DNA from: Labilibaculum sp. DW002
GTDB lineage: Bacteria; Bacteroidota; Bacteroidia; Bacteroidales; Marinifilaceae
DNA length: 64,000 bases
Direction: 5' to 3'
NCBI RefSeq assembly: GCF_029029525.1
Contig: NZ_JAKJSC010000001.1
Location: 1,736,001-1,800,000 of the forward strand
The notes beneath the pieces are model-generated. The model worked only from the letters and a program-made list of their open reading frames with translations, searched no databases and was not told the origin of the DNA. Of this stretch, positions 1,083-62,465 are shown piece after piece (positions within the stretch are counted from its first letter, which is position 1; each line of letters starts with the position of its first letter). The position numbers and the translations under genes were made by a program.

Positions 1083-2717
1083 TTACATCAAGAAACTCAA
1101 TAGAATACCAGCTCCTACTGCCGAACCAATAACACCAGATACGTTAGGCGCCATTGCATGCATCAACAAGTGGTTAGTTGGATCATTCTCCAATCCCATC
1201 ACCTGTACTACACGAGCACTATCAGGAACAGCAGATACACCAGCCGCACCAATCATAGGATTGATAGGACGATCTTTTGGCGAGAAGATGTTCATAACCT
1301 TAGCAAAGATTACACCACCAGCTGTTGCAACAATAAATGATGCAGCTCCCAATCCGAAGATTAAGATTGAGTCAGCAGTTAAGAATACATCAGCCTGAGT
1401 TGAAGCACCTACTGTTACACCCAATAGAATTGTAATAATGTTAATCAATGCATTACTAGCAGTTTCAGCCAAACGGTTAGTCACTGTAGATTCTTTAAGT
1501 AGATTACCAAAGAATAACATACCCAACAATGGCACCGAAGTTGGTGAGATATAAGCTGTTAATAACAAACCAATAATTGGGAACATGATTTTTTCAAGAC
1601 GAGTTACCGCACGAGGCGCTTTCATCTTAATCTTTCTTTCCTTTTTAGTTGTCAACAAGTTAATAATTGGAGGTTGAATTACAGGAACCAAAGCCATATA
1701 CGAATAAGCCGCAATCGCGATAGGTCCGATCAAGTTCTTCACCGTTTCTCCATTTGCCATCACATTCATACCATTGGCAAGTTTTGATGACAAGAAGATA
1801 GCCGTAGGACCATCAGCACCACCAATAATTCCAATCGCACCTGCCTCTGGTGGAGCAAAGCCCATCCAAAGAGCACCTAGGAATGTTGCAAAGATACCAA
1901 TCTGAGCTGCTGCTCCAAGAATCATCAAACGTGGGTTTGAAATTAATGAAGAGAAGTCTGTCATAGCACCAATTCCTAAGAAAATCAAAGGAGGATACCA
2001 TCCTTGCAATACACCTGAATATAGTAGATTCATTACTGAACCTGGCTCGTAAACACCTAACTTCAAGTTAAAGTCTACTGCTTGGAACATTGGAATATTA
2101 CCAATCAAGATACCTGTTCCAATAGGAATCAATAATAATGGCTCGTAGTCATACTTAATCGCTAAGAAAATAAAGAAGATACCAATCAACATCATCAACA
2201 AGTGACCAGGTGTTACATTAGCAAAACCAGTAAATTCATAGAAATTTTTCAATCCTACAACAGCATCTGATTCATGTGCACAATTAAGTAAAGGGTTAGC
2301 GAACTTAAGCATATCACCATCAACCTTGGCTATACGTGTACCAAGATTAAGTACTTCTTTAGTTGTACTGTAAGCATTTGATCCAGAATTTGGATCACTA
2401 TTTTTAAATAGGTGAGTTACAGTCTTAGGCTTAAATATAATAATTACATTTTCACCTTCGGTTTTCCAACTCCCACTAAAACGTTGTTTAACCGAGTCCA
2501 TAATAAAAGTATGATCTCCTTTAAACTCAAATGTCTTATAACGTTTTACTGTTTTATCAGATATTCCAATTGGGTTAGGTACATAACCATCTTCATGATT
2601 TACCCATTTCCCAGTTGTTAGTTTTGCTGCGGTATCCGATGAATCTTGGGCGATGGCGCTAAAAGCAAGCCCCATCAACAAGATCATAGAGAATACCATT
2701 GAATAAAGTTTTCTCAT
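1083..2717 (-). CDS. mmdB: Sodium-pumping decarboxylase beta subunit with N-terminal periplasmic lipocalin-like domain
   Basis: 544 residues, about 150 longer than a typical OadB/MmdB/GcdB. Residues 165-544 are the multi-span membrane subunit that decarboxylates carboxybiotin and exports Na+. The family signatures are present: GGADGPT (299-305, Asp302 equivalent to the essential Asp of Klebsiella OadB) and NPMIGAAGVSAVP (486-498). Residues 1-24 form a signal peptide. Residues 30-150 are an extra soluble domain with a lipocalin-like pattern (TGKWVNHEDG, YKTFEFKGDHTF, SGSWKTEGENVIII). It is the last gene of mce-mmdA-oadG-mmdC-mmdB, so the substrate is probably methylmalonyl-CoA. The N-terminal extension is in frame and preceded by a good start, so it is not a wrong start call. 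Its role is unknown. Confidence 0.9.
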   Translation of the reverse strand: MRKLYSMVFSMILLMGLAFSAIAQDSSDTAAKLTTGKWVNHEDGYVPNPIGISDKTVKRYKTFEFKGDHTFIMDSVKQRFSGSWKTEGENVIIIFKPKTVTHLFKNSDPNSGSNAYSTTKEVLNLGTRIAKVDGDMLKFANPLLNCAHESDAVVGLKNFYEFTGFANVTPGHLLMMLIGIFFIFLAIKYDYEPLLLIPIGTGILIGNIPMFQAVDFNLKLGVYEPGSVMNLLYSGVLQGWYPPLIFLGIGAMTDFSSLISNPRLMILGAAAQIGIFATFLGALWMGFAPPEAGAIGIIGGADGPTAIFLSSKLANGMNVMANGETVKNLIGPIAIAAYSYMALVPVIQPPIINLLTTKKERKIKMKAPRAVTRLEKIMFPIIGLLLTAYISPTSVPLLGMLFFGNLLKESTVTNRLAETASNALINIITILLGVTVGASTQADVFLTADSILIFGLGAASFIVATAGGVIFAKVMNIFSPKDRPINPMIGAAGVSAVPDSARVVQVMGLENDPTNHLLMHAMAPNVSGVIGSAVGAGILLSFLM

Positions 2718-2744
2718 TATATAGTTTTTCCCTTTTGTATGAAA

Positions 2745-3164
2745 TTACCCAATTTCAATAAGTACATCATCCTGAAGTACTGCATCTCCCACATTTACTT
2801 TAATAGCTTTAACTGTACCAGGCTTTTCAGCCAGTACGTTATTTTCCATTTTCATGGCTTCCATTACAAGTAAAGTATCACCAGCATTAATTGAGTCACC
2901 TACGGCAACGTCAACTTTAATGATAGTTCCTGGAAGAGGAGCTTTAATACTAACACCACCTGCAGTTTTTTTAATCTGACCTTCACCTGGCTTATTAACG
3001 ACAGGCTTACGAATCAACTGAGGCGTTTTAGAAGCTTTTTCTTCTGCATGAATCTCAACATCGTAAACAGTACCGTTTACTTCAATTTGAGCATTTGAAC
3101 CTTCGATCTCTTTGATATCAACATCGAAATCCTGTCCTTTTATAGTAAATTTGAACTTTTTCAT
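2745..3164 (-). CDS. mmdC: Biotin carboxyl carrier subunit of methylmalonyl-CoA decarboxylase
   Basis: 139 residues. The C-terminal half (70-139) is a biotinyl domain with the biotinylation motif EAMKMEN; the biotin-accepting lysine is Lys105. The N-terminal 40 residues (MKKFKFTIKG, VNGTVYDVEI) are the beta strand region common to Bacteroidota decarboxylase carriers, joined by a Pro/Lys-rich linker (47-68). It ferries CO2 from the MmdA active site to MmdB at the membrane. It lies 27 bases upstream of mmdB and begins only 5 bases after the stop of the frameshifted oadG, so the genes are co-transcribed. Assignment to the gamma/carrier role is secure from motif and context. Confidence 0.92.
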   Translation of the reverse strand: MKKFKFTIKGQDFDVDIKEIEGSNAQIEVNGTVYDVEIHAEEKASKTPQLIRKPVVNKPGEGQIKKTAGGVSIKAPLPGTIIKVDVAVGDSINAGDTLLVMEAMKMENNVLAEKPGTVKAIKVNVGDAVLQDDVLIEIG

Positions 3165-3168
3165 CGTC

Positions 3169-3523
3169 TTATCTTGGTTGATTCATTACTCCATAAATCT
3201 TTGAACTCCATGGAGAATAATTCTTAGTTACTTTCTTAATGGTAATAATATTGCTTTCATCATCATGAATTTGATCGAAGTGCAAATGAAGTGCCATAGC
3301 TATAGCCGCATTTACATTTCCTTCAATATTCAAATCCTCAACATGAGCGCTTGGCTTACCTTGCTTTCACAAGCTTCTTTCTCAAGTTAAGCTGTAATAA
3401 TTTAGGTAAGTTGATAAAAACAATAACAAGTAGTACCAATGCAATAAATACAATTGAGTAACCTACGATAGCAATTGTCCATCCTCCCTGACTTCCAATC
3501 GATAATAAATTGATATAACTCAT
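3169..3523 (-). pseudogene. oadG: OadG/MmdD-type membrane anchor subunit with a +1 frameshift
   Basis: The ATG at 3523 opens a 55-codon frame containing one transmembrane helix (about residues 17-39), typical of OadG/MmdD, and ends at TAA 3358-3356. Shifting by one base there gives a continuous 62-codon frame to the TAA at 3171-3169 that carries the conserved OadG tail: NAAIAMALHLHF, then IITIKKV, then YSPWSSKIYG. The whole interval is 355 bases, one more than a multiple of three, so a single extra base (near 3356-3362) explains it. OadG anchors the soluble subunits to the beta subunit. Both halves are well conserved, which argues for a recent mutation, a sequencing error, or recoding at AGG-TAA. 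It sits exactly between mmdA and mmdC as expected for the operon. Confidence 0.8.
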
Positions 3524-3536
3524 AGTTTATTATTTT

Positions 3537-5093
3537 TTACAATGGAATGTTTGAATGCTTTTTAGCTGGATTACTCTGCTTCTTAGTCTGTAAAGACTGG
3601 AATGCACGAATCACTCTAAAACGTGTATTACGAGGCTCAATCACATCATCAATGTAACCATATGAAGCTGCATTGTATGGGTTAGCAAATTTCTCGTTAT
3701 ACTCAATTTCTTGCTCATTGATGAAAGCAACTTTCTCATCATCGCTAAGTTCCATCATTTTTCTACCATGTAGTACCTCGATAGCACCTTTAGCTCCCAT
3801 TACTGCAATTTCAGCTGAAGGCCAAGCGTAGTTAAGGTCACCACGTAATTGCTTACAAGACATTACATCGTGAGCACCACCATAAGATTTACGTAGAGTG
3901 ATAGTTACTTTAGGAACAGTAGCCTCACCATAAGCGAACATTAATTTCGCACCATGAGTAATGATACCACCAAACTCCTGACCTGATCCCGGAAGGAATC
4001 CTGGAACGTCAACTAAAGTAAGAATAGGAATATTAAAACAGTCACAGAAGCGGATAAAACGAGCTGCTTTTCTTGAAGATTCAATATCTAAAACACCTGC
4101 AAGGAAGTTAGGCTGATTGGCAACAATACCTACTGGCATACCACCCATTCTTGAGAAACCTACAAGAATATTCTTTGCATAGTGACGGTGAACTTCTAAG
4201 AACTCAGCATTATCAACCATAGAATAAATAACATCCTTCATATCGTAAGGCATGTTAGGATTCTCAGGAATAATCTCGTTCAACACATCTTCCATTCTAT
4301 CGATTGGATCATTACAATCCGCCAATGGTGGCTCTTCAAGATTATTAGAAGGCATGAAAGATAACAACTTACGAATAATCATGATTCCTTCTTCTTCATC
4401 TTCCAATTTGAAGTGAGAAACACCTGATTTAGATGCGTGCATATGAGCACCACCCAAGTCTTCAGTTGTAATATCTTCACCAGTCACAGTTTTTACAACC
4501 TTAGGACCGGTAACAAACATGTATGACTTTTCTTCAGTCATCATGATAAAGTCAGTTAATGCAGGAGAATAAACGGCTCCACCAGCACAAGGACCAAAAA
4601 TTGCAGAAATCTGAGGAATAACACCAGACGCCATAATATTTCTCTGGAAAATCTCAGCATAACCAGCTAGAGCAGTAACACCCTCCTGAATACGAGCTCC
4701 TCCTGAATCATTCAATCCAATACAAGGTGCTCCAACTTTCATTGCCATATCCATCACCTTGCAAATCTTTTGTGCAAAGGTTTCCGATAAAGAACCACCA
4801 AATACTGTGAAATCCTGAGAGAACACAAAAATTAAACGTCCATCTACAGTTCCTTGACCTGTAACAACACCATCGCCTAAGAATTTAGTTTTCTCCATAC
4901 CAAAATTGGTACAACGATGTGTTACAAACATATCGAATTCCTCGAAACTACCTTCATCCAAAAGCATATCGATTCTTTCACGAGCAGTACACTTACCTTT
5001 CTTGTGCTGAGATACAATACGCTTCTCACCTCCGCCAAGTTTAGCTTCAGCTCTTAAGTCAATTAACTTCTTAATTTTATCCTGACTAGCCAT
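3537..5093 (-). CDS. mmdA: Methylmalonyl-CoA decarboxylase alpha subunit (acyl-CoA carboxyltransferase)
   Basis: 518 residues, the usual length for the propionyl/methylmalonyl-CoA carboxyltransferase family. It moves CO2 between methylmalonyl-CoA and the biotin of MmdC. Visible signatures are the start region with GGGEKRI and TARERI, the glycine-rich acyl-CoA oxyanion loop [12 protein letters not shown], and the carboxybiotin-side [16 protein letters not shown] and [13 protein letters not shown]. It ends in KKHSNIPL, a tail shared with the other two paralogues in this window. The neighbours (epimerase upstream; oadG, carrier and Na+ pump downstream) identify the substrate as methylmalonyl-CoA and the reaction as Na+-coupled decarboxylation to propionyl-CoA, unlike the ATP-dependent paralogue at 31375-32910. 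Confidence 0.93.
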
Positions 5094-5131
5094 AACTTCT
5101 ATTAGTTATAATATATTATAATTGAGTGTTC

Positions 5132-5536
5132 TTATTTATTACCACAAAGTTCAGTCAAAACTCTCTGAGTTGACTTAGGGTGCATGAAACCAATCTTCAA
5201 ACCTTCAGCTCCACCACGAGGTGTCTTATCGATCAATTGACATCCTGCTTCTGCAGCATCATTCAACGCTTCTTGAACATCTTCTACAGCAAATGCTAAG
5301 TGATGCATTCCGCCACCAGTCTTCTCTACGAATTTACCAATTGGTCCTTCTGGATCAGTAGACTCAAGCAATTCGATTTTTACATCTCCTACTTTGAAAA
5401 ACGCAGTCTTCACTTTCTGATCAACTACTTCTTCAATAGCATAACACTCTAATCCTAATACTTTCTCGTAAAATGGAATAGCTTCTTCTAAGCTTTTAAC
5501 AGCAATTCCGATGTGCTCAATATGTGTCGGTTTCAT
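5132..5536 (-). CDS. mce: Methylmalonyl-CoA epimerase
   Basis: 134 residues, typical for the vicinal oxygen chelate-fold epimerase that interconverts (2R)- and (2S)-methylmalonyl-CoA. The first motif IEHIGIAVKSLEEAIPFYE carries the metal-binding His; HHLAFAVEDV and the C-terminal LTELCGN supply further ligands. It is the first gene of the decarboxylase operon, 38 bases ahead of mmdA, with a promoter 35-65 bases upstream. It links methylmalonyl-CoA mutase (not in this window) to the decarboxylase. Assignment is secure. Confidence 0.95.
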   Translation of the reverse strand: MKPTHIEHIGIAVKSLEEAIPFYEKVLGLECYAIEEVVDQKVKTAFFKVGDVKIELLESTDPEGPIGKFVEKTGGGMHHLAFAVEDVQEALNDAAEAGCQLIDKTPRGGAEGLKIGFMHPKSTQRVLTELCGNK

Positions 5537-29240: not shown

Positions 29241-30764
29241 ATGATCAAGAAGATTTCAAAAGTTCTCGTTGCAAATCGAGGAGAAATTGCTCTGCGTGTA
29301 ATGCGCTCGTGCAGGGAATTGGGAATTCTTTCTGTTGCTGTTTATTCCGACGTAGATCGAACATCGATGCACGTACGTTATGCCGATCAAGCATTTCATA
29401 TCGGACCAGCAGCCTCGGCAGAGAGTTATTTAAATATGGATAAAATTATAGAAGTTGCTAAGCGATCCAAAGCTGATGCAATTCATCCTGGTTATGGCTT
29501 CTTAAGTGAGAATGCTGAATTCTCTAAACGCTGTCACCAGGAAGGAATTATATTCATCGGCCCAACACCCGAAGTTATCTCTACAATGGGAGATAAAATA
29601 ACCGCTCGACAAACAATGATAGCTGGTGGTGTACCAGTAGTCCCCGGAACCAAAGAAAACCTTGAGGATGAAACCACAATCCTTAAAGTGGTAAAAGAAG
29701 TCGGACTTCCGGTTATGATTAAAGCTTCGGCAGGCGGTGGTGGAAAAGGAATGAGAATGGTAGATAAAGAAAAAGATATTTTAAGCTCTCTTCGTGCTGC
29801 CAAATCAGAAGCTATGTCATCATTTGGTGACGATTCTGTTTATGTAGAAAAATACATCTCTTCACCTCATCATATCGAATTCCAAATTCTAGGTGACCAA
29901 CACGGTAATGTTATTCATCTTTGCGAAAGAGAGTGTTCGGTACAACGTCGACATCAAAAAGTTGTTGAAGAAACACCTTCTCCTCTAATGACCCCCGAGC
30001 TTAGGGAGAAAATGGGACAATCTGCTGTAGAAGCTGCCAAAGCTGTAAATTATCACGGTGCAGGAACTATCGAATTCCTTGTTGACAACGATCACAACTA
30101 CTATTTTCTGGAAATGAACACTCGCCTTCAGGTGGAGCATCCTATTACCGAAAGGGTAACGGGTTATGACCTAGTTAAAGCTCAAATTCAGATTGCAGAG
30201 GGGCAAGCCTTAGAAATTAAACAGGAGGATGTTTTCCAATTTGGACATGCTATTGAGTGCCGAATTTATGCCGAAGACACTGAAAATAACTTTATGCCTA
30301 GTCCGGGACTAATTACTCATATTACTGAACCCATGGGTTTAGGTGTAAGAACTGACGGTTATGTGTACGAAGGTTATGAGATTCCAATCCACTACGATCC
30401 TATGATCTCGAAGCTTATTGTATGGGCAAGAACCCGGTCTGAGGCAATTGAACGAATGCGTCGTGCCCTGTATGAGTATAAAATAACAGGTGTTAAAACT
30501 TCAATTCAGTTTCTGGAACGTATTATGGATTGTCCTGATTTTAGAAATGGCACCTATGATACTCATTTTATACAAGACAACGAGGAGTTTTTACTTGCTC
30601 CTGACGAGGCGAAAGAATCTTTTGAAGATTTAGCCATAGTTACTGCCTTTTTAGATTACCACCACAAACTCAAAAATGCCCAAGTTAACCCAAAATCTGC
30701 CGCACATAACAAGTGGAAAGAATTTGGTCGACGTAGAGGCATGTTTAGAGCAAGTGAAAATTAA
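29241..30764 (+). CDS. pccA: Biotin carboxylase subunit of propionyl/acetyl-CoA carboxylase
   Basis: 507 residues, an ATP-grasp biotin carboxylase without a fused carrier. It makes carboxybiotin from ATP and bicarbonate. Signatures are KVLVANRGEIALRVMRSCRE, HPGYGFLSENAEF, the ATP loop KASAGGGGKGMRMV, CSVQRRHQK, and EMNTRLQVEHPITE with the catalytic Arg/Glu. It is the first gene of a three-gene operon with the biotin carrier and a carboxyltransferase whose closest relatives use propionyl-CoA. Acetyl-CoA carboxylase (accC) is the alternative name, but no accA/accD is nearby. Confidence 0.9.
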   Translation: MIKKISKVLVANRGEIALRVMRSCRELGILSVAVYSDVDRTSMHVRYADQAFHIGPAASAESYLNMDKIIEVAKRSKADAIHPGYGFLSENAEFSKRCHQEGIIFIGPTPEVISTMGDKITARQTMIAGGVPVVPGTKENLEDETTILKVVKEVGLPVMIKASAGGGGKGMRMVDKEKDILSSLRAAKSEAMSSFGDDSVYVEKYISSPHHIEFQILGDQHGNVIHLCERECSVQRRHQKVVEETPSPLMTPELREKMGQSAVEAAKAVNYHGAGTIEFLVDNDHNYYFLEMNTRLQVEHPITERVTGYDLVKAQIQIAEGQALEIKQEDVFQFGHAIECRIYAEDTENNFMPSPGLITHITEPMGLGVRTDGYVYEGYEIPIHYDPMISKLIVWARTRSEAIERMRRALYEYKITGVKTSIQFLERIMDCPDFRNGTYDTHFIQDNEEFLLAPDEAKESFEDLAIVTAFLDYHHKLKNAQVNPKSAAHNKWKEFGRRRGMFRASEN

Positions 30765-30787
30765 AGGATAAACTAAAAAATTATAAA

Positions 30788-31306
30788 ATGGCAATTGAAA
30801 TAAAATTGGGCGACCGACTGGCAAAAGTTGAACTTCTTGCTGAAGATGGAACCCAGGTGAAAATAATGGTCGATAACAAAGAATATGATCTCGACATGCA
30901 GCAGGTTGAAAACGGAGTTTATTCTGTGATGTATAAAGGTCGTTCTTTTAATGTAGAGTTAATTGATACCGATTCTCCGAAAAAATACTCTGTCAACACA
31001 TTTTATCATTCATACGATGCTGAAATAATTGATGCTGAGACTAAATATTTGCAAGCCCGAAAAGGTGGTGAAATGGATGATGAGCAGAGTACAATAAGTT
31101 CGCCAATGCCCGGCAAAGTTGTCAAAATACAGGTTGGCTTAGGCGAAGAAGTTAAAAAAGGAGATACCGTCATCATTATTTCAGCAATGAAAATGGAAAG
31201 TGAATATAAAGCAGGGAAAGATGGTACCATTTCTGAGATTTTTGTAAACGAAGAAGATACTGTTGATGGCAATCAACCATTAGTATTCATTGATGATTTA
31301 GACTAA
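30788..31306 (+). CDS. Biotin carboxyl carrier subunit of propionyl-CoA carboxylase
   Basis: 172 residues. The C-terminal 75 residues form the biotinyl domain, with SAMKMES and biotin-accepting Lys135, preceded by SSPMPGKVVKIQV. The N-terminal half (strands around IEIKLGDRLAKVEL and KEYDLDMQQV) resembles the BT (biotin carboxylase-transferase linker) region found in propionyl-CoA carboxylase alpha chains, here as a separate polypeptide. It lies 23 bases after the biotin carboxylase and 68 before the carboxyltransferase. It differs from the shorter decarboxylase carrier at 2745-3164. Confidence 0.9.
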   Translation: MAIEIKLGDRLAKVELLAEDGTQVKIMVDNKEYDLDMQQVENGVYSVMYKGRSFNVELIDTDSPKKYSVNTFYHSYDAEIIDAETKYLQARKGGEMDDEQSTISSPMPGKVVKIQVGLGEEVKKGDTVIIISAMKMESEYKAGKDGTISEIFVNEEDTVDGNQPLVFIDDLD

Positions 31307-31374
31307 TACAATTTAAGCAAAACCCGTTTTCTAAAGTTTAGAGCATTTAGGATAACAAAAAAACAACGATTGAA

Positions 31375-32910
31375 ATGTTGACACTTGAAGACAAAATAAA
31401 AAGATTTGAAGAGCTAAGTAAAAAAGCCGAATTGGGTGGTGGCGAAGAACGAATTGCAAAGCATCATGCCGGCGGTAAAAAAACAGCTCGCGAAAGAATT
31501 TTGGATCTGATGGACCCTGATACCTTTACCGAAATTGATAAGATGGTAACCCACCGTTCTACAGATTTTGGAATGGAAAAGAATAAAATTCTTGGCGATG
31601 GTGTCGTTTCAGGTTATGGCAAAATTGATGGTCGCTTGTGCTATGTATTTGCACAAGACTTCACCGTTTTTGGAGGCTCATTGAGTCGATCAAATGCCGA
31701 CAAGATTGTGAAAGTTACCAAGCTTGCCATGAAAATGGGAGCACCTATTATAGGATTAAATGACTCAGGTGGAGCGCGTATTCAAGAAGGCGTACAATCA
31801 CTGGCTGGTTATGCAGACATCTTCTACCAAAATGTTCGGGGTTCGGGTGTAATTCCTCAAATCTCAGCCATCATGGGCCCTTGTGCCGGTGGTGCAGTAT
31901 ACTCTCCTGCCCTTACCGATTTTATCATGATGGTGAAGGATACTTCTTATATGTTCGTAACAGGTCCCGATGTGATCAAAACGGTAACTCACGAAGAGGT
32001 GACTAAGGAAGAATTAGGGGGAGCGATTACTCACAACTCAAAATCAGGCGTTGCGCATCTTGTGGCTGACGACGATGAACAAGCTATGATGATGTTGCGT
32101 GAACTGATGACCTTCCTTCCATCAAACAATATGGAAGATCCACCGATAAAACCATGTACTGATAATATCCATCGTGAGGATGAAAAGTTACAAAACATAG
32201 TACCTGTCGATCCTAACAAACCTTATAATATCAAGGACATTATTGAAACCGTTGTTGATGATAAAAACTTCTTTGAATTAATGCCACTTTATGCACAAAA
32301 CATCACGACAGGTTTTGCGCGATTGGGTGGACAACCAGTTGGTATTGTTGCCAATAACCCAGCTTTCTTAGCCGGAGTTTTAGATATCGATTCATCAACT
32401 AAAGCAGCTCGATTTGTTCGCTTCTGCGATGCTTTTAATATCCCTCTTGTTACTTTTGTAGATGTACCAGGTTTCTTACCAGGAACAGAACAGGAGTATG
32501 GTGGTATTATTAAGCATGGTGCAAAGCTTTTATATGCTTTTGCTGAAGCTACAGTGCCAAAAATCACATTAATTACTCGTAAAGCCTATGGTGGGGCATA
32601 CGATGTGATGGCTTCGAAACATATTGGTGCTGATATTAACTACGCTTTCCCAACTGGTGAAATTGCTGTAATGGGTGCCGAAGGTGCTGTAAATATTGTA
32701 AGTAAGAACTTAAGCGATGAAGAGAGAGCTGCGGCTATTGAGGATTATCGTGACAAATTTGCAAATCCCTACAAGGCGGCTGAAATGGGTTATATCGATG
32801 AAGTGATTCAACCCAAGCAAAGTCGTTATAAATTGATTCAAGCATTGGAAATGTGTCGCAATAAGAGTGAACACAACCCACCCAAAAAACACGGAAATAT
32901 TCCATTGTAA
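31375..32910 (+). CDS. pccB: Propionyl-CoA carboxylase beta subunit (carboxyltransferase)
   Basis: 511 residues, paralogous to the products at 3537-5093 and 60909-62465. It transfers CO2 from carboxybiotin to propionyl-CoA. The oxyanion loops are [12 protein letters not shown] and [16 protein letters not shown], then [13 protein letters not shown], with the common C-terminal tail KKHGNIPL. With its own biotin carboxylase and carrier upstream it forms the ATP-dependent, non-sodium-coupled route to methylmalonyl-CoA. Acyl-CoA specificity (propionyl versus acetyl) is set by one residue in the substrate pocket that I did not verify. Confidence 0.9.
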
Positions 32911-58660: not shown

Positions 58661-58697
58661 AAAAAAATACCCCCTGAGGATAAATTCAGGGGGTAAT
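58661..58697 (-). terminator. Terminator of the transcarboxylase locus
   Basis: ATACCCCCTGA ... TCAGGGGGTA stem, T-run on the minus strand, 25 bases beyond the stop at 58722. Confidence 0.85.
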
Positions 58698-58721: not shown

Positions 58722-60626
58722 TTAGGCTTTTGGCTCAATTACTAAAAGCAAATCGCCTTTAGCAACAGAATCGCCAGTCTCACATTTAATCTCTTTTACA
58801 GTACCTGCTGCTTTAGCATCAAGATTATTCATCATCTTCATTGCTTCAAGTACGACTAATGCATCTCCTACTTTTACTTCGTCACCAACTTTTACTTTGC
58901 ACTCCACAATCATACCTGGGATTGGAGCAACAACGCTTCCTGTAGCCATTTCATCGTTAGCAGACTCCTTTTTCTTACGTCCTTTAAATTGAGGCGTAGC
59001 AGGACCGTTTGGATCATTTATTTCTACCGTAAAGGTTTCACCGTCAACAGTAACTTCAAGCTCACGACCGTTACCTTTTCCTTTTGAAGTTAACTCTCCG
59101 GAAAGGGCTTTTCTTACAAGCTCCTCTTCTTTTTCAACCTCTGCCATTGTTTTAGCTTTGACATCTGCCGGTACTTCTTCCAAACCATACTTCCACTTTA
59201 AGAAGCGTTTTCCCGTTATAGGATAAAGTGCGCATAAAACTTCGTCATCGATATCCTTAGCAAGATCACTGAATTCAGCTTTAACATCTTCCATTTCCGG
59301 CTCAAGAATAGATCCCGGACGAGCTGTAATAGGCTCTTCACCACGAGGATAATCCTTCAAAGCTTTCTTTTGAACTTCAGGATCAATTGGATGAGTCGTT
59401 TTACCATACAATCCAAAGCAAAGGTCTTTTACCTCTTTGGTAATTTGAGCATACTCTCCTTCGTAAGAATCAAACAATACATTGTTTACTGTTTGTACAC
59501 CAACAATTTGAGATGTAGGCGTAACCAATGGAATGTTACCAAGCTGCTTACGTACTTTAGGAAGTAAACGATACACTTCCGGTAATTTATCTAATGCATC
59601 CATTGCTTTCAACTGATTTACCAAGTTAGAAAGCATTCCTCCCGGAGTTTGGTGCAATAAGACATTGATATCCGTAGTCGCATACTTAGGATTATTATCT
59701 AAGTGTTTGTATTTAGGAATGTATTTCTCCATTTCACCAGCAATAGCATTAATTTTATTAATGTCCATTCCTGAATCGCGGTTTGTTCCCAATAGAGACA
59801 TGATCAATGGCTCAACAGCTGCGTGAGAAGTACGGTATGCATAAGGTCCGATACAAGTATCAACGATATCTACACCAGCTTCAATCGCTTTAAAAATAGC
59901 CAAGTCACCCATACCTGAAGTAAAGTGAGTATGCAAGTTAATTGGTGTATCCGTAAATGTCTTGATTTCGCGCACCAAATTGTAAATATCATAAGGAGCA
60001 ATCAATCCGGCCATATCTTTGATACAGATAGAATCTACACCAAAACTTAAAAGATCTTTCACTTTGTTGATGTAGTATTCCATATTGTATACTTCACCAC
60101 CTAAACGAGGCTGGTTCAAAGTATAACACACCACACCTTGAAGATGTTTTTTGTTATCCTTAATTACTTTTGCCGCAGTTTCAAAGTTTCTGAAATCATT
60201 CAACGCATCGAAACAACGGAAGATATCCATACCATTATCGATTGATCGCTGAACAAAAGACTGAACCACATCATCAGCATAATTACGGTATCCTACCACA
60301 TTCTGTCCACGAAGAAGCATTGAGAATGGCGTTTTAGGCATATGCTTTTTCAATACTCTTAAACGCTCCCATGGATCTTCACCCAAGAAACGGTGCATGG
60401 TATCAAAAGTTGCACCACCCCATGTTTCAACAGAATGATATCCTGCTTCGTCAATCATTTCTGCTACAGGCAACATATCTTCTGTACGTCCACGAGTAGC
60501 GAACAACGATTGGTGTCCATCACGTAAACTTACATCATTAATCTTGATTGGATTTTCAGCTTTCGGACGATCTTTGTCAAAGTTAAGCTCGGTCATTTGT
60601 AAGACCCCGTGTTTATCGTATATCAT
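58722..60626 (-). CDS. Pyruvate/oxaloacetate carboxyltransferase (transcarboxylase 5S/OadA-like) fused to a biotin carrier domain
   Basis: 634 residues. Residues 25-300 are the TIM-barrel carboxyltransferase with NDVSLRDGHQS (metal and substrate), FDALNDFRN, DSICIKDMAG (the lysine expected to be carbamylated) and LHTHFTSGMG (metal His pair). Residues 310-500 are the conserved carboxylase domain (HQTPGGMLSNL). A charged linker leads to a biotinyl domain (about 560-634) with EAMKMMN, biotin-accepting Lys597. In transcarboxylase this would be the 5S subunit joined to 1.3S. The locus has no biotin carboxylase and no OadB-type pump. It could also serve as OadA with the pump of the first locus. Confidence 0.88.
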   Translation of the reverse strand: MIYDKHGVLQMTELNFDKDRPKAENPIKINDVSLRDGHQSLFATRGRTEDMLPVAEMIDEAGYHSVETWGGATFDTMHRFLGEDPWERLRVLKKHMPKTPFSMLLRGQNVVGYRNYADDVVQSFVQRSIDNGMDIFRCFDALNDFRNFETAAKVIKDNKKHLQGVVCYTLNQPRLGGEVYNMEYYINKVKDLLSFGVDSICIKDMAGLIAPYDIYNLVREIKTFTDTPINLHTHFTSGMGDLAIFKAIEAGVDIVDTCIGPYAYRTSHAAVEPLIMSLLGTNRDSGMDINKINAIAGEMEKYIPKYKHLDNNPKYATTDINVLLHQTPGGMLSNLVNQLKAMDALDKLPEVYRLLPKVRKQLGNIPLVTPTSQIVGVQTVNNVLFDSYEGEYAQITKEVKDLCFGLYGKTTHPIDPEVQKKALKDYPRGEEPITARPGSILEPEMEDVKAEFSDLAKDIDDEVLCALYPITGKRFLKWKYGLEEVPADVKAKTMAEVEKEEELVRKALSGELTSKGKGNGRELEVTVDGETFTVEINDPNGPATPQFKGRKKKESANDEMATGSVVAPIPGMIVECKVKVGDEVKVGDALVVLEAMKMMNNLDAKAAGTVKEIKCETGDSVAKGDLLLVIEPKA

Positions 60627-60680
60627 CTTTTTTATTTTTTTTGTTGATTAATACTTTTCCTAATTAACAGGAAAATAGAA

Positions 60681-60869
60681 TTATGCACTTCGTAGACTTC
60701 GACCGCGAAGCTGTGCAATCTTACGTTTAGCCATCATCATTTTGACGCCAGCACGTGACCAGGAACCATTTATTGATTCTTCAACTTTTAACGCTTCAGC
60801 TTTCTCTTGTTCTATATAGTGAGCAACTGCTATAGCTGCTGCTTTTTTAATCTTTTCTTCTCGTGTCAT
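60681..60869 (-). CDS. Small soluble subunit related to the OadG/MmdE tail
   Basis: 62 residues between the carboxyltransferase and the OadA-like gene, closely spaced to both. The sequence AAAIAVAHYIEQEKAE followed later by GSWSRAGVK parallels the C-terminal OadG pattern seen in this window at 3169-3357 (AAIAMALHLHFDQ and YSPWSSKIYG). It lacks a membrane helix and ends basic (KRKIAQLRGRSLRSA). In Veillonella methylmalonyl-CoA decarboxylase a similarly small epsilon subunit, MmdE, stabilises the complex. I infer an assembly role in a soluble complex. Confidence 0.75.
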   Translation of the reverse strand: MTREEKIKKAAAIAVAHYIEQEKAEALKVEESINGSWSRAGVKMMMAKRKIAQLRGRSLRSA

Positions 60870-60908
60870 AATTATTGGTCTTAATAATTAATTTATTAAA
60901 AGTCTTTC

Positions 60909-62465
60909 TTACAATGGAATATTTCCGTGTTTCTTAGCTGGTAATACTTCTGCTTTTGTTTTCATTGCATTCAATGCATCAATCAAACGAGCTCGAGTTT
61001 CGCTAGGAAGAATTACATCATCGATATAGCCACGCTGTGCTGCCAAATAAGGAACGTTAAATGCTTCTTCGTATTCCTTAATTTTCTCATCAGTTTTAGC
61101 TTGCTTATCATCAGCAGCAGCAATTTCTTTTTTATAAGAAGAGATAACCTCTACCGCACCCTTAGCACCCATTACCGCAATTTCGGCAGTTGGCCATGCA
61201 AATACCATATCAGCTCCCAATGGCTTAGAACACATTGCCAAATAAGCTCCACCGTAATCTTTACGTGTTACAACAGTAAACTTAGGCACAGTAGCCTCGG
61301 CATAACTCCATAATAATTTCGCTCCGTGGCGGATAATACCACCTAGCTCTTGCTGAACTCCCGGAAGGTATCCCGGAACATCAACGAATGTGATCATTGG
61401 AATATTAAAAGCATCACAAGTACGAACGAAACGAGAAATTTTATCAGAAGCATCAATATCTAAACAACCAGCTTGAATCATTGGTTGGTTAGCGATAATA
61501 CCTACCGATTGATTATCTAATCGACCAAAACCGATAATGGCATTCTCAGCATAGTGTTCATGCACTTCGTAGAATTCACCCTGATCAAGCACCGATTCAA
61601 TAACACCCTTCATGTCGTAAGGTGTTTTTGCATCATCAGGAATCATTGTATCCAATTCCGAGCAATCACGCTCAGGATCGTCACCCATAGGCAACTGAGG
61701 CGTTTCCTCCAGGTTGTTATTTGGCAAATAGCTTAATAAATCGCGAATTTCTTCAATTGTATCTTCATCTGAATCGCAAGCGAAGTGAGCGTTACCACTT
61801 TTGGCATTGTGAGCCATAGCTCCACCCAGTTCTTCAAAAGTCGTTTCTTCACCTGTTACTGTTTTAATTACATAAGGAGATGTAATAAACATATGACTCT
61901 GTTTCTTAACCATGTAAACAAAGTCAGTCATAGCTGGAGAATATACTGCACCACCGGCACAAGGGCCCATAATTGCAGAAATCTGTGGAATTACCCCTGA
62001 TGCTCTTGAGTTACGCATAAATATTTCACCATAACCTTTCAATGCATCAACACCTTCTTCTACACGAGCTCCACCTGAATCGTTAAGTCCAACAATAGGA
62101 GCTCCGGCACTTACAGCCAAATCCATTACTTTACAGATTTTTGCAGCATGCATTTCTCCTAAAGATCCTCCACGGGAAGTAAAATCCTGAGAGTAAGCAA
62201 ATACTGTGCGTCCATTGACTAAACCATGACCGATGATAACACCATCAGCTGGAATCTCAGTTTTTTCAAAGCCAAAGTTTGTACAACGGTGTTCCACAAA
62301 CATATCCAACTCTCTAAAACTTCCTTCATCAAAAAGTAGGTCTATTCTCTCACGTGCGGAAAGCTTACCTTTGTCATGCTGTTTGGCAACACGAGCTTCT
62401 CCACCCATCTTTTTAACTTCTTCTCTTTTTTTCTTTAAGAGATCTAACTTTTCAGATACCTTCAT
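60909..62465 (-). CDS. Acyl-CoA carboxyltransferase (transcarboxylase 12S/MmdA-like)
   Basis: 518 residues, third paralogue of the family in the window. Oxyanion loops are NDSGGARVEEGV and [16 protein letters not shown], then VDVPGYLPGVQQE; the end KKHGNIPL is shared with PccB. It is the first gene of its locus. It would take CO2 from or give it to methylmalonyl-CoA/propionyl-CoA. Paired with an OadA-like subunit carrying biotin it fits the 12S subunit of methylmalonyl-CoA:pyruvate carboxyltransferase. Specificity for propionyl-CoA is inferred. Confidence 0.9.
   Translation of the reverse strand: MKVSEKLDLLKKKREEVKKMGGEARVAKQHDKGKLSARERIDLLFDEGSFRELDMFVEHRCTNFGFEKTEIPADGVIIGHGLVNGRTVFAYSQDFTSRGGSLGEMHAAKICKVMDLAVSAGAPIVGLNDSGGARVEEGVDALKGYGEIFMRNSRASGVIPQISAIMGPCAGGAVYSPAMTDFVYMVKKQSHMFITSPYVIKTVTGEETTFEELGGAMAHNAKSGNAHFACDSDEDTIEEIRDLLSYLPNNNLEETPQLPMGDDPERDCSELDTMIPDDAKTPYDMKGVIESVLDQGEFYEVHEHYAENAIIGFGRLDNQSVGIIANQPMIQAGCLDIDASDKISRFVRTCDAFNIPMITFVDVPGYLPGVQQELGGIIRHGAKLLWSYAEATVPKFTVVTRKDYGGAYLAMCSKPLGADMVFAWPTAEIAVMGAKGAVEVISSYKKEIAAADDKQAKTDEKIKEYEEAFNVPYLAAQRGYIDDVILPSETRARLIDALNAMKTKAEVLPAKKHGNIPL

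Follow-up and report, generated by a model that had tools for sequence, protein, structure and literature searches.

We analyzed a stretch of 64,000 nucleotides from the genome of Labilibaculum sp. DW002 (contig NZ_JAKJSC010000001.1, positions 1,736,001 to 1,800,000), which we will call the window. A compact locus on its minus strand (58722-62465) contains three genes, which we will call the trio. The first (60909-62465, minus strand) encodes a 12S-type acyl-CoA carboxyltransferase subunit of 518 amino acids. The second (60681-60869, minus strand) encodes a protein of 62 amino acids, which we will call epsilon. The third (58722-60626, minus strand) encodes a protein of 634 amino acids in which a 5S-type pyruvate/oxaloacetate carboxyltransferase is fused to a 1.3S-type biotin carrier. 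The intergenic gaps are 39 and 54 bases. After the fused gene there is a hairpin that resembles an intrinsic terminator (58668-58695, minus strand), with 10 pairs and a run of Ts. Because the terminator-like hits around the locus are not more numerous than in shuffled sequences (3 versus a mean of 2.6), this call rests on the hairpin's place and strength. We did not find genes for biotin carboxylase, OadB, or OadG within the locus. Both kinds are present elsewhere in the window: an operon for a methylmalonyl-CoA decarboxylase pump lies at about 1083-5536, and an operon with a biotin carboxylase, a carrier, and a carboxyltransferase lies at 29241-32910.

The original prediction for this locus was a methylmalonyl-CoA:pyruvate transcarboxylase whose carrier is fused to the 5S subunit. 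It described the three genes, the terminator, and the lack of a biotin carboxylase or OadB/OadG pair just as we find them. Judging from the sequences, we also think it quite likely that the product of the trio is a transcarboxylase, a soluble methylmalonyl-CoA:pyruvate carboxyltransferase that depends on biotin. The locus combines two carboxyltransferases of different substrate class with one biotin carrier and no biotin carboxylase. This reading is the best supported because the gene order is conserved, because genes of the methylmalonyl-CoA pathway adjoin the trio in Desulfobacterota, because four other genomes with the trio gave no match to a biotin carboxylase, and because the activity was measured in Desulfobulbus propionicus, the species by which one host is labelled.

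In Pfam, the fused protein matches HMGL-like (residues 183-296), PYC_OADA (322-532), and Biotin_lipoyl (567-630). The biotin-attachment residue is Lys597, as was predicted; it lies within EAMKM (codon at 58836-58838, minus strand) and is invariant across an alignment of 24 rows. From about residue 521 onwards, the protein aligns with separate carriers of 120-125 amino acids from two genomes of the same order (L053 and L054), which suggests that a whole 1.3S-type carrier has been fused on. (At these two loci and at L052, also from the window's order, a 5S-type gene is preceded by a separate biotin carrier, and no 12S gene adjoins.) By sequence, the fused protein matches the PDB entries 5KS8, 2NX9, and 1RQB, of which 5KS8 is the best. 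Its AlphaFold model (pLDDT 81.9) matches the folds of 5KS8, 2NX9, and 1RQH. Because 5KS8 ranks 1st in the fold search and 1RQH ranks 31st, the fold alone cannot separate the possible readings of this protein.

The metal ligands (D, K, H, and H) and the residues corresponding to A59 and M186 of the 5S subunit (numbered as in the titles of PDB entries 1S3H and 1U5J) are conserved throughout the 29 trio rows. They are also conserved in nearly all rows of PycB, OadA, and other related families, so they are not specific. A loop in the active site, Y264-R265-T266-S267-H268 (codons at 59823-59837, minus strand), is more informative: Arg265 is present in all 40 rows from the clade that contains the trio (described below) and in none of the 54 other rows. 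The adjacent Thr266 is common to pyruvate carboxylases. It presumably aligns with T908 and T882 of pyruvate carboxylase, which fits our alignment of the full pyruvate carboxylases. Mutants of these threonines (T908A and T882A) are named in PDB titles.

The 12S-type subunit is a full-length acyl-CoA carboxyltransferase (Carboxyl_trans in Pfam, 648.7 bits over residues 28-516). Its best match in the PDB is the beta subunit of propionyl-CoA carboxylase (1VRG), and it also matches the 12S subunit of transcarboxylase (1ON3; E = 4e-183). It contains the motif GGAYLAMC, whose counterpart in 1ON3 is GGSYLAMC. YLAMC is found in 7 of 7 classical transcarboxylases (two of these rows are from one genome) and in 16 of 24 trio 12S rows. 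The three other acyl-CoA carboxyltransferases that we compared from the Labilibaculum genome have HDVM, YDVM, or YIAM instead; a fourth, MCC-like, was not included. One position in this motif, which we take to govern the choice of acyl-CoA in propionyl-CoA carboxylase, is leucine in the trio's 12S subunit and aspartate in the PCC-type and pump-type subunits of the same genome. The 12S-type subunit may well serve the methylmalonyl-CoA/propionyl-CoA half-reaction.

To describe the distribution of the trio, we scanned named genomes and kept the best 80 loci. These comprise 26 loci in which the fused gene is immediately preceded by a 12S gene, 43 more distant loci (mostly of the pyruvate carboxylase or oxaloacetate decarboxylase type), and 11 members of the same clade that lack the trio. 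Together with the window and two further loci (L050 and L051), this gives 29 trio loci, from Bacteroidota, Cloacimonadota, Desulfobacterota, and Chloroflexota. (The contig start truncates the 12S gene in L066, L076, L084, and L086, and in L081 the gene is split into two open reading frames.) In each of these 29 loci, the gap between the 12S gene and the fused gene contains an epsilon-like reading frame. With 28 further loci sharing this arrangement, we rejected a chance cluster of genes.

The trio is spread over four phyla yet is rare in the window's own order. Among 247 sampled genomes from the order, 6 matched the fused protein, and 3 contained the fused form (our genome, G341 at 85%, and G261 at 77%), each together with the trio. 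The corresponding sample from the phylum, also of 247 genomes, gave 53 matching genomes (including our own) at E = 1e-60, with the others at 30-43% identity. Most of these matches came from one family (f18), and the remainder were mainly frames of 1150-1200 amino acids, which is the size of a full pyruvate carboxylase. We examined four of the loci from f18, and they contain separate 5S-12S operons with the 1.3S gene seen in three; a few further matches from f18 are frames of 618-652 amino acids. (The four loci, L055-L058, are classical transcarboxylase operons with separate 5S, 12S, and 1.3S genes, with only 5S and 12S seen in L058, and their 5S is sister to the Propionibacterium 5S.) Marinifilum fragile also has the trio; its fused protein is 96% identical to ours, and trxB and kbl adjoin the trio in both genomes. 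The source organism of the window is close to Marinifilum.

The neighbors of the trio point to the methylmalonyl-CoA pathway. Genes for the mutase, the epimerase, or succinyl-CoA synthetase lie within 6 kb of 11 of the 26 named trio loci and of none of the 43 distant loci (18 of which adjoin biotin carboxylase, 19 OadB, and 6 neither). Two loci (L067 and L080) have a complete operon: mce, mutase, a MeaB-like GTPase, 12S, epsilon, 5S/1.3S, sucC, and sucD. The others are partial. For instance, a genome labelled Desulfobulbus propionicus (L068) has the trio beside sucCD. The second copy of the trio in Desulfocicer vacuolatum is part of one row of genes, between acyl-CoA-transferase-like genes and a transporter-like gene, which is followed by mce, mutase, sucC, and sucD. 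The Chloroflexi members L086 and L088 are near a malate-dehydrogenase-like gene. We labelled the neighbors by their similarity to reference reading frames from L067, from L088, and from our own genome (an epimerase-like frame), which had been named from their motifs and from gene order. At the level of whole genomes, Pfam identifies methylmalonyl-CoA mutase in 7 of 7 genomes with the trio.

Methylmalonyl-CoA:pyruvate transcarboxylase activity has been measured in D. propionicus (PMC3072085); this species is represented in our data by L068 alone, which we know by its label and which is not the type strain. Labilibaculum, compared with Marinifilum, is described in an excerpt as likely making propionate via the methylmalonyl-CoA pathway (PMC5760507), and propionate genes are reported, in the accessible text, to be transcribed by deep-sea Marinifilaceae (PMC9765461). 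A study of Syntrophobacter names Sfum_0461, whose number follows that of the malate dehydrogenase (Sfum_0460), as a pyruvate carboxyltransferase and lists Sfum_1223 as a separate candidate (PMC3570798). The mmc cluster of Pelotomaculum includes a transcarboxylase termed 'Pot' (PMC6046458, in excerpt), and coupling via a carboxyltransferase is an old idea for other syntrophs, as far as the available passages indicate (PMC6046458, PMC7082340, and PMC10579422). Different routes also appear in the portions available to us: a study of Desulfococcus describes carboxylation of propionyl-CoA by an ATP-dependent carboxylase and formation of pyruvate by malic enzyme (PMC5109826), and a study of Cloacimonadota proposes a Na+ pump that could be linked to the decarboxylation of oxaloacetate (PMC13082233). 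We did not find a description of this gene trio in the open-licence literature that we searched, which was available in part and without supplements.

Phylogenetic analysis separates the trio from the known families. In a quick tree of the 5S part (94 of the 108 rows that we extracted, omitting close relatives of OadA and PycB, L092, and L152), the 29 trio rows and the 11 trio-less members form one group (SH-aLRT 89) that excludes PycB, OadA, the full pyruvate carboxylases, and the classical 5S proteins. The classical 5S proteins are sister to OadA in this tree. The PycB rows do not form one clade, and the trio clade lies outside them. In a more careful tree of 45 rows, a branch supported at 100/100 sets the 19 rows from the clade apart from the rest. 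L089 is a basal, long-branched member of the clade. The original prediction named a placement of the OadA-like protein inside the B subunits of pyruvate carboxylase as an outcome that would speak against it; we find a separate clade instead.

The original prediction described the trio as a two-and-a-half-gene version of the Propionibacterium enzyme; the trees show that it is not a shortened descendant of that enzyme. Grouping the clade with the 5S subunit of classical transcarboxylase was rejected in the 45-row tree (p-AU 0.0044), and the 12S subunits of the trio do not group with the Propionibacterium 12S (1ON3) in a tree of 12S proteins. (The 12S tree has 24 trio rows; it excludes the five loci whose 12S gene is cut or split, namely L066, L076, L081, L084, and L086, and it contains the distant carboxyltransferases from L090 and L091, which are not counted as trio.) We therefore rejected descent from the Propionibacterium transcarboxylase. 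The best reading of these sequences is that the trio is a transcarboxylase that was assembled independently of the classical one.

The least familiar component is epsilon. It has no match in Pfam or NCBIfam at E = 0.001, including to PF04277. It is soluble, without a transmembrane part, and AlphaFold predicts one long helix (pLDDT 80, pTM 0.39). Near its N-terminus is the motif AAxAAVxxY(I/L), which is reminiscent of OadG tails, and this is followed by a conserved W...G....M motif. The epsilon-like reading frames of the trio loci encode 55-77 amino acids, except that L067 has 105 and L076 has 88 if counted from the first start codon; these two are not among the 27 rows of our alignment. The frame from L088 diverges most from the others and is the one assigned with the least certainty.

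Epsilon was predicted to be a small protein like the tail of OadG, and we find a weak likeness of this kind. For comparison, we collected OadG tails by searching 60 genomes of the window's order with PF04277, which gave 30 loci; our tail profiles used 22 of these reading frames and the 54-amino-acid tail from the window, and left out 8 frames, most of which are not OadG. With hhalign, epsilon scored 16.6 and 20.1 against two profiles, which is above all 100 column-shuffled controls for each profile. The likeness is thus above that of shuffled profiles, but the match is weak, with hhalign probabilities of just 3 and 11%. (In the window's pump operon, the OadG/MmdD-type subunit is encoded at 3169-3523 by two reading frames, a membrane part of 55 amino acids and the tail of 54 amino acids. 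The corresponding subunit in the pump operon of M. fragile is a single frame of 116 amino acids.) In oxaloacetate decarboxylase, the tail of the gamma subunit (OadG) binds the association domain of the alpha subunit, according to the portion of PMC7274780 that was available. By analogy, the association domain of the 5S-1.3S protein is the most likely binding site of epsilon, whose second motif may contact the 12S subunit.

If the trio is a transcarboxylase, then the 12S-type subunit would move CO2 from methylmalonyl-CoA to the biotin of the fused carrier, which would leave propionyl-CoA. The carrier domain would then swing to the TIM barrel of its own protein, which depends on a metal and would hand the CO2 to pyruvate to form oxaloacetate. 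Neither ATP nor free CO2 would be required, and the reverse reaction could operate during propionate oxidation. Epsilon, bound to the association domain, would tether the 5S-1.3S protein to a hexamer of 12S. The genes and their domains, the active-site residues, the conserved gene order, the separate clade, and the pathway genes beside the trio in relatives can be read from the sequences; from them we infer the substrates, the direction, the contacts between subunits, and the role of epsilon. The saving of ATP in propionate fermentation, which was part of the original prediction, would be a consequence of this scheme; the genome also keeps a Na+-pump decarboxylase.

Several observations weigh against a transcarboxylase. 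The 11 loci that are flanked by pathway genes all come from Desulfobacterota and do not count as independent cases, and no trio locus from Bacteroidota has such neighbors within 6 kb. The 12S subunits of the Desulfobulbus-like trios (L068 and L082) belong to a different 12S lineage. The 5S part lies outside the classical 5S clade, and the model for classical 5S (PRK12330) gives 463 bits where 827 are needed. Some fused members of the clade have no adjoining 12S gene (L085, L099, and L089), other members have neither a biotin domain nor an adjacent 12S gene (L087, L090, L091, L093, and L094), and the rest of the trio-less members are cut by contig ends (L073, L075, and L083). Also, among the 25 NCBIfam matches listed, the only label above its cut-off is PRK09282, 'pyruvate carboxylase subunit B' (a domain-type model; 675 bits versus 402). 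The OadA model (TIGR01108) scores 649.2 bits, which is below its cut-off of 756.5. The PRK09282 label, the fact that the nearest solved relative by both sequence and fold (5KS8) is a pyruvate carboxylase B subunit, and the shared Thr266 could be explained if the OadA-like protein is the PycB of an ATP-dependent, two-subunit pyruvate carboxylase. It would borrow a distant biotin carboxylase (such as 29241-30764 in the window), and the 12S gene would be a separate part of an acyl-CoA carboxylase. Our genome does have two biotin carboxylase genes elsewhere, but both have their own carrier and carboxyltransferase. Within the reach of the flanks, none of the 29 trio loci has a biotin carboxylase beside the fused gene, as compared to 18 of the 43 distant loci. 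Furthermore, a search with PF02785 found no biotin carboxylase in four of the seven genomes with the trio: G341 (93% complete), G261 (98% complete), Desulfonema magnum (one contig), and D. vacuolatum (draft). The other three have one copy (G492) or two copies (M. fragile and our genome). Because this test used a single model, a divergent biotin carboxylase could escape detection, although the model matched 13 of 14 control genomes; and a lack of matches is not confined to genomes with the trio, because the trio-less G309 shows none either (the trio-less G388 has three). Still, because four of seven trio genomes seem to lack a biotin carboxylase, an ATP-dependent pyruvate carboxylase is not a general explanation. 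It would also leave the fixed order of 12S, epsilon, and 5S unexplained, and a branch supported at 100/100 divides the clade from PycB. Given the missing partner and the separate clade, we rejected the identification as PycB, and we consider this explanation to be quite improbable.

Another explanation is that the trio works as a decarboxylase, in which the 5S-1.3S protein, or the 12S subunit with the carrier, docks on a distant OadB-type Na+ pump to give an oxaloacetate or methylmalonyl-CoA decarboxylase, and epsilon replaces the tail of OadG. Genes of the OadB type are present in 8 of 8 genomes tested, including 6 with the trio, and in our own genome. Some of them have no alpha subunit or carrier adjoining: this is the case in D. 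magnum, for two of three copies in D. vacuolatum, and for one of two in G492. One of the partnerless pairs in D. vacuolatum is about 18 kb from the second copy of the trio, on the same contig. L089 adjoins OadB as well, and epsilon weakly resembles OadG tails. On the other hand, no OadB was found in the flanks of the 28 other trio loci (up to 6-8 kb, and less at contig ends), and the window's OadB is 56 kb from the trio. Four genomes (ours, G341, G261, and M. fragile) have the OadB-type gene in one operon with MmdA and a carrier of its own. A second carboxyltransferase of another substrate class would be superfluous for a decarboxylase, and the clade is separate from OadA. We rejected the OadA of a Na+ pump as the identity of the fused protein because trio loci lack OadB; given the partnerless OadB genes, we keep the docking idea at low weight and view it as unlikely. 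The trio might instead be a transcarboxylase with another acyl-CoA partner, such as acetyl-CoA/malonyl-CoA, which would serve fatty-acid synthesis in cells without acetyl-CoA carboxylase. The four trio genomes with no biotin carboxylase found are consistent with this, as is the leucine in the 12S motif, but the neighbors of the relatives are genes of the methylmalonyl-CoA pathway, and our genome has a complete set of biotin carboxylase, carrier, and carboxyltransferase. We consider this to be very improbable, and such a reaction might exist alongside the proposed one, as a side activity, instead of replacing it. A broader and rather doubtful scenario combines several of these ideas: in an independently evolved machine, epsilon would be a soluble offshoot of the OadG tail and would act as a docking switch. 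With epsilon, the 5S-1.3S protein would sit on the 12S hexamer and act as a transcarboxylase; without epsilon, it would sit on alpha-less OadG-OadB pairs and pump Na+. The machine might also supply malonyl-CoA where there is no biotin carboxylase.

We noticed a few other proteins from these families. Our genome encodes a protein of 1146 amino acids (C4; L009:7235-10675) with two tandem 5S-type carboxyltransferase units whose metal ligands are intact. It has no biotin domain, and the 18 kb that we examined contain no 12S, biotin carboxylase, or OadB. M. fragile (G494, C12) has a frame of 1153 amino acids with two matches to PYC_OADA. Our genome also encodes an acyl-CoA carboxyltransferase, which groups with 1VRG from Thermotoga maritima, and a biotin carrier of 102 amino acids, as a pair without a biotin carboxylase (C12; L010:8248-10113). 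We considered the double-5S protein and the pair from our genome as partners of the trio and found no link. In three genomes of Desulfobacterota, the OadB genes at L201, L203, L204, and L208 have no alpha subunit or carrier adjoining, and in the first three of these, an OadG-like reading frame precedes OadB.

If the trio is a transcarboxylase, then the energy balance of propionate formation and oxidation would change in many anaerobes, as no ATP would be spent on the carboxylation. 'Pyruvate carboxylase subunit B' would be a misleading label for the trio clade, and the Arg-Thr-Ser of the loop would be a simple diagnostic of it. In the portions of the literature that we examined, the transcarboxylase activity of Desulfobulbus (PMC3072085) is not tied to this gene trio.

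Our best reading of the sequences is that the trio works like a transcarboxylase, is not of the Propionibacterium lineage, and has an extra conserved subunit. Like the Propionibacterium transcarboxylase (12S, 5S, and 1.3S; 1ON3 and 1RQB), the trio has a 12S-type subunit, a 5S-type subunit, and a biotin carrier, with no biotin carboxylase; the active-site residues are alike, and YLAMC is found in both kinds of 12S. However, the Propionibacterium enzyme has three separate subunits, whereas in the trio 5S and 1.3S are one polypeptide and there is an extra subunit of 62 amino acids. The 5S and 12S proteins of the trio are from lineages other than those of Propionibacterium, and the loop has Arg-Thr instead of the Gly-Pro of classical 5S. 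The transcarboxylase of Giardia, a eukaryote, is one long polypeptide. Domain fusion and fission are reported for its family in the title of Jordan et al. 2003, a reference of PMC3199775. The PycB of two-subunit pyruvate carboxylase (5KS8) has the same overall fold as the fused protein, with a carboxyltransferase domain and a C-terminal biotin domain, and most have the threonine of the loop. The trio differs in that it has no partner gene for biotin carboxylase, has an adjoining 12S gene, forms a separate clade, and has Arg rather than Gly in the loop. OadA (2NX9) also combines a carboxyltransferase and a biotin domain, and epsilon weakly resembles the tail of its partner OadG, but the trio has no OadB in the locus, epsilon has no transmembrane part, the clade is separate, and the loop has RTS instead of TYG. 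Finally, MmdE from the methylmalonyl-CoA decarboxylase of Veillonella is a very short, soluble relative of the gamma/delta tail of the pumps. It resembles epsilon by description, and it belongs to a membrane pump.

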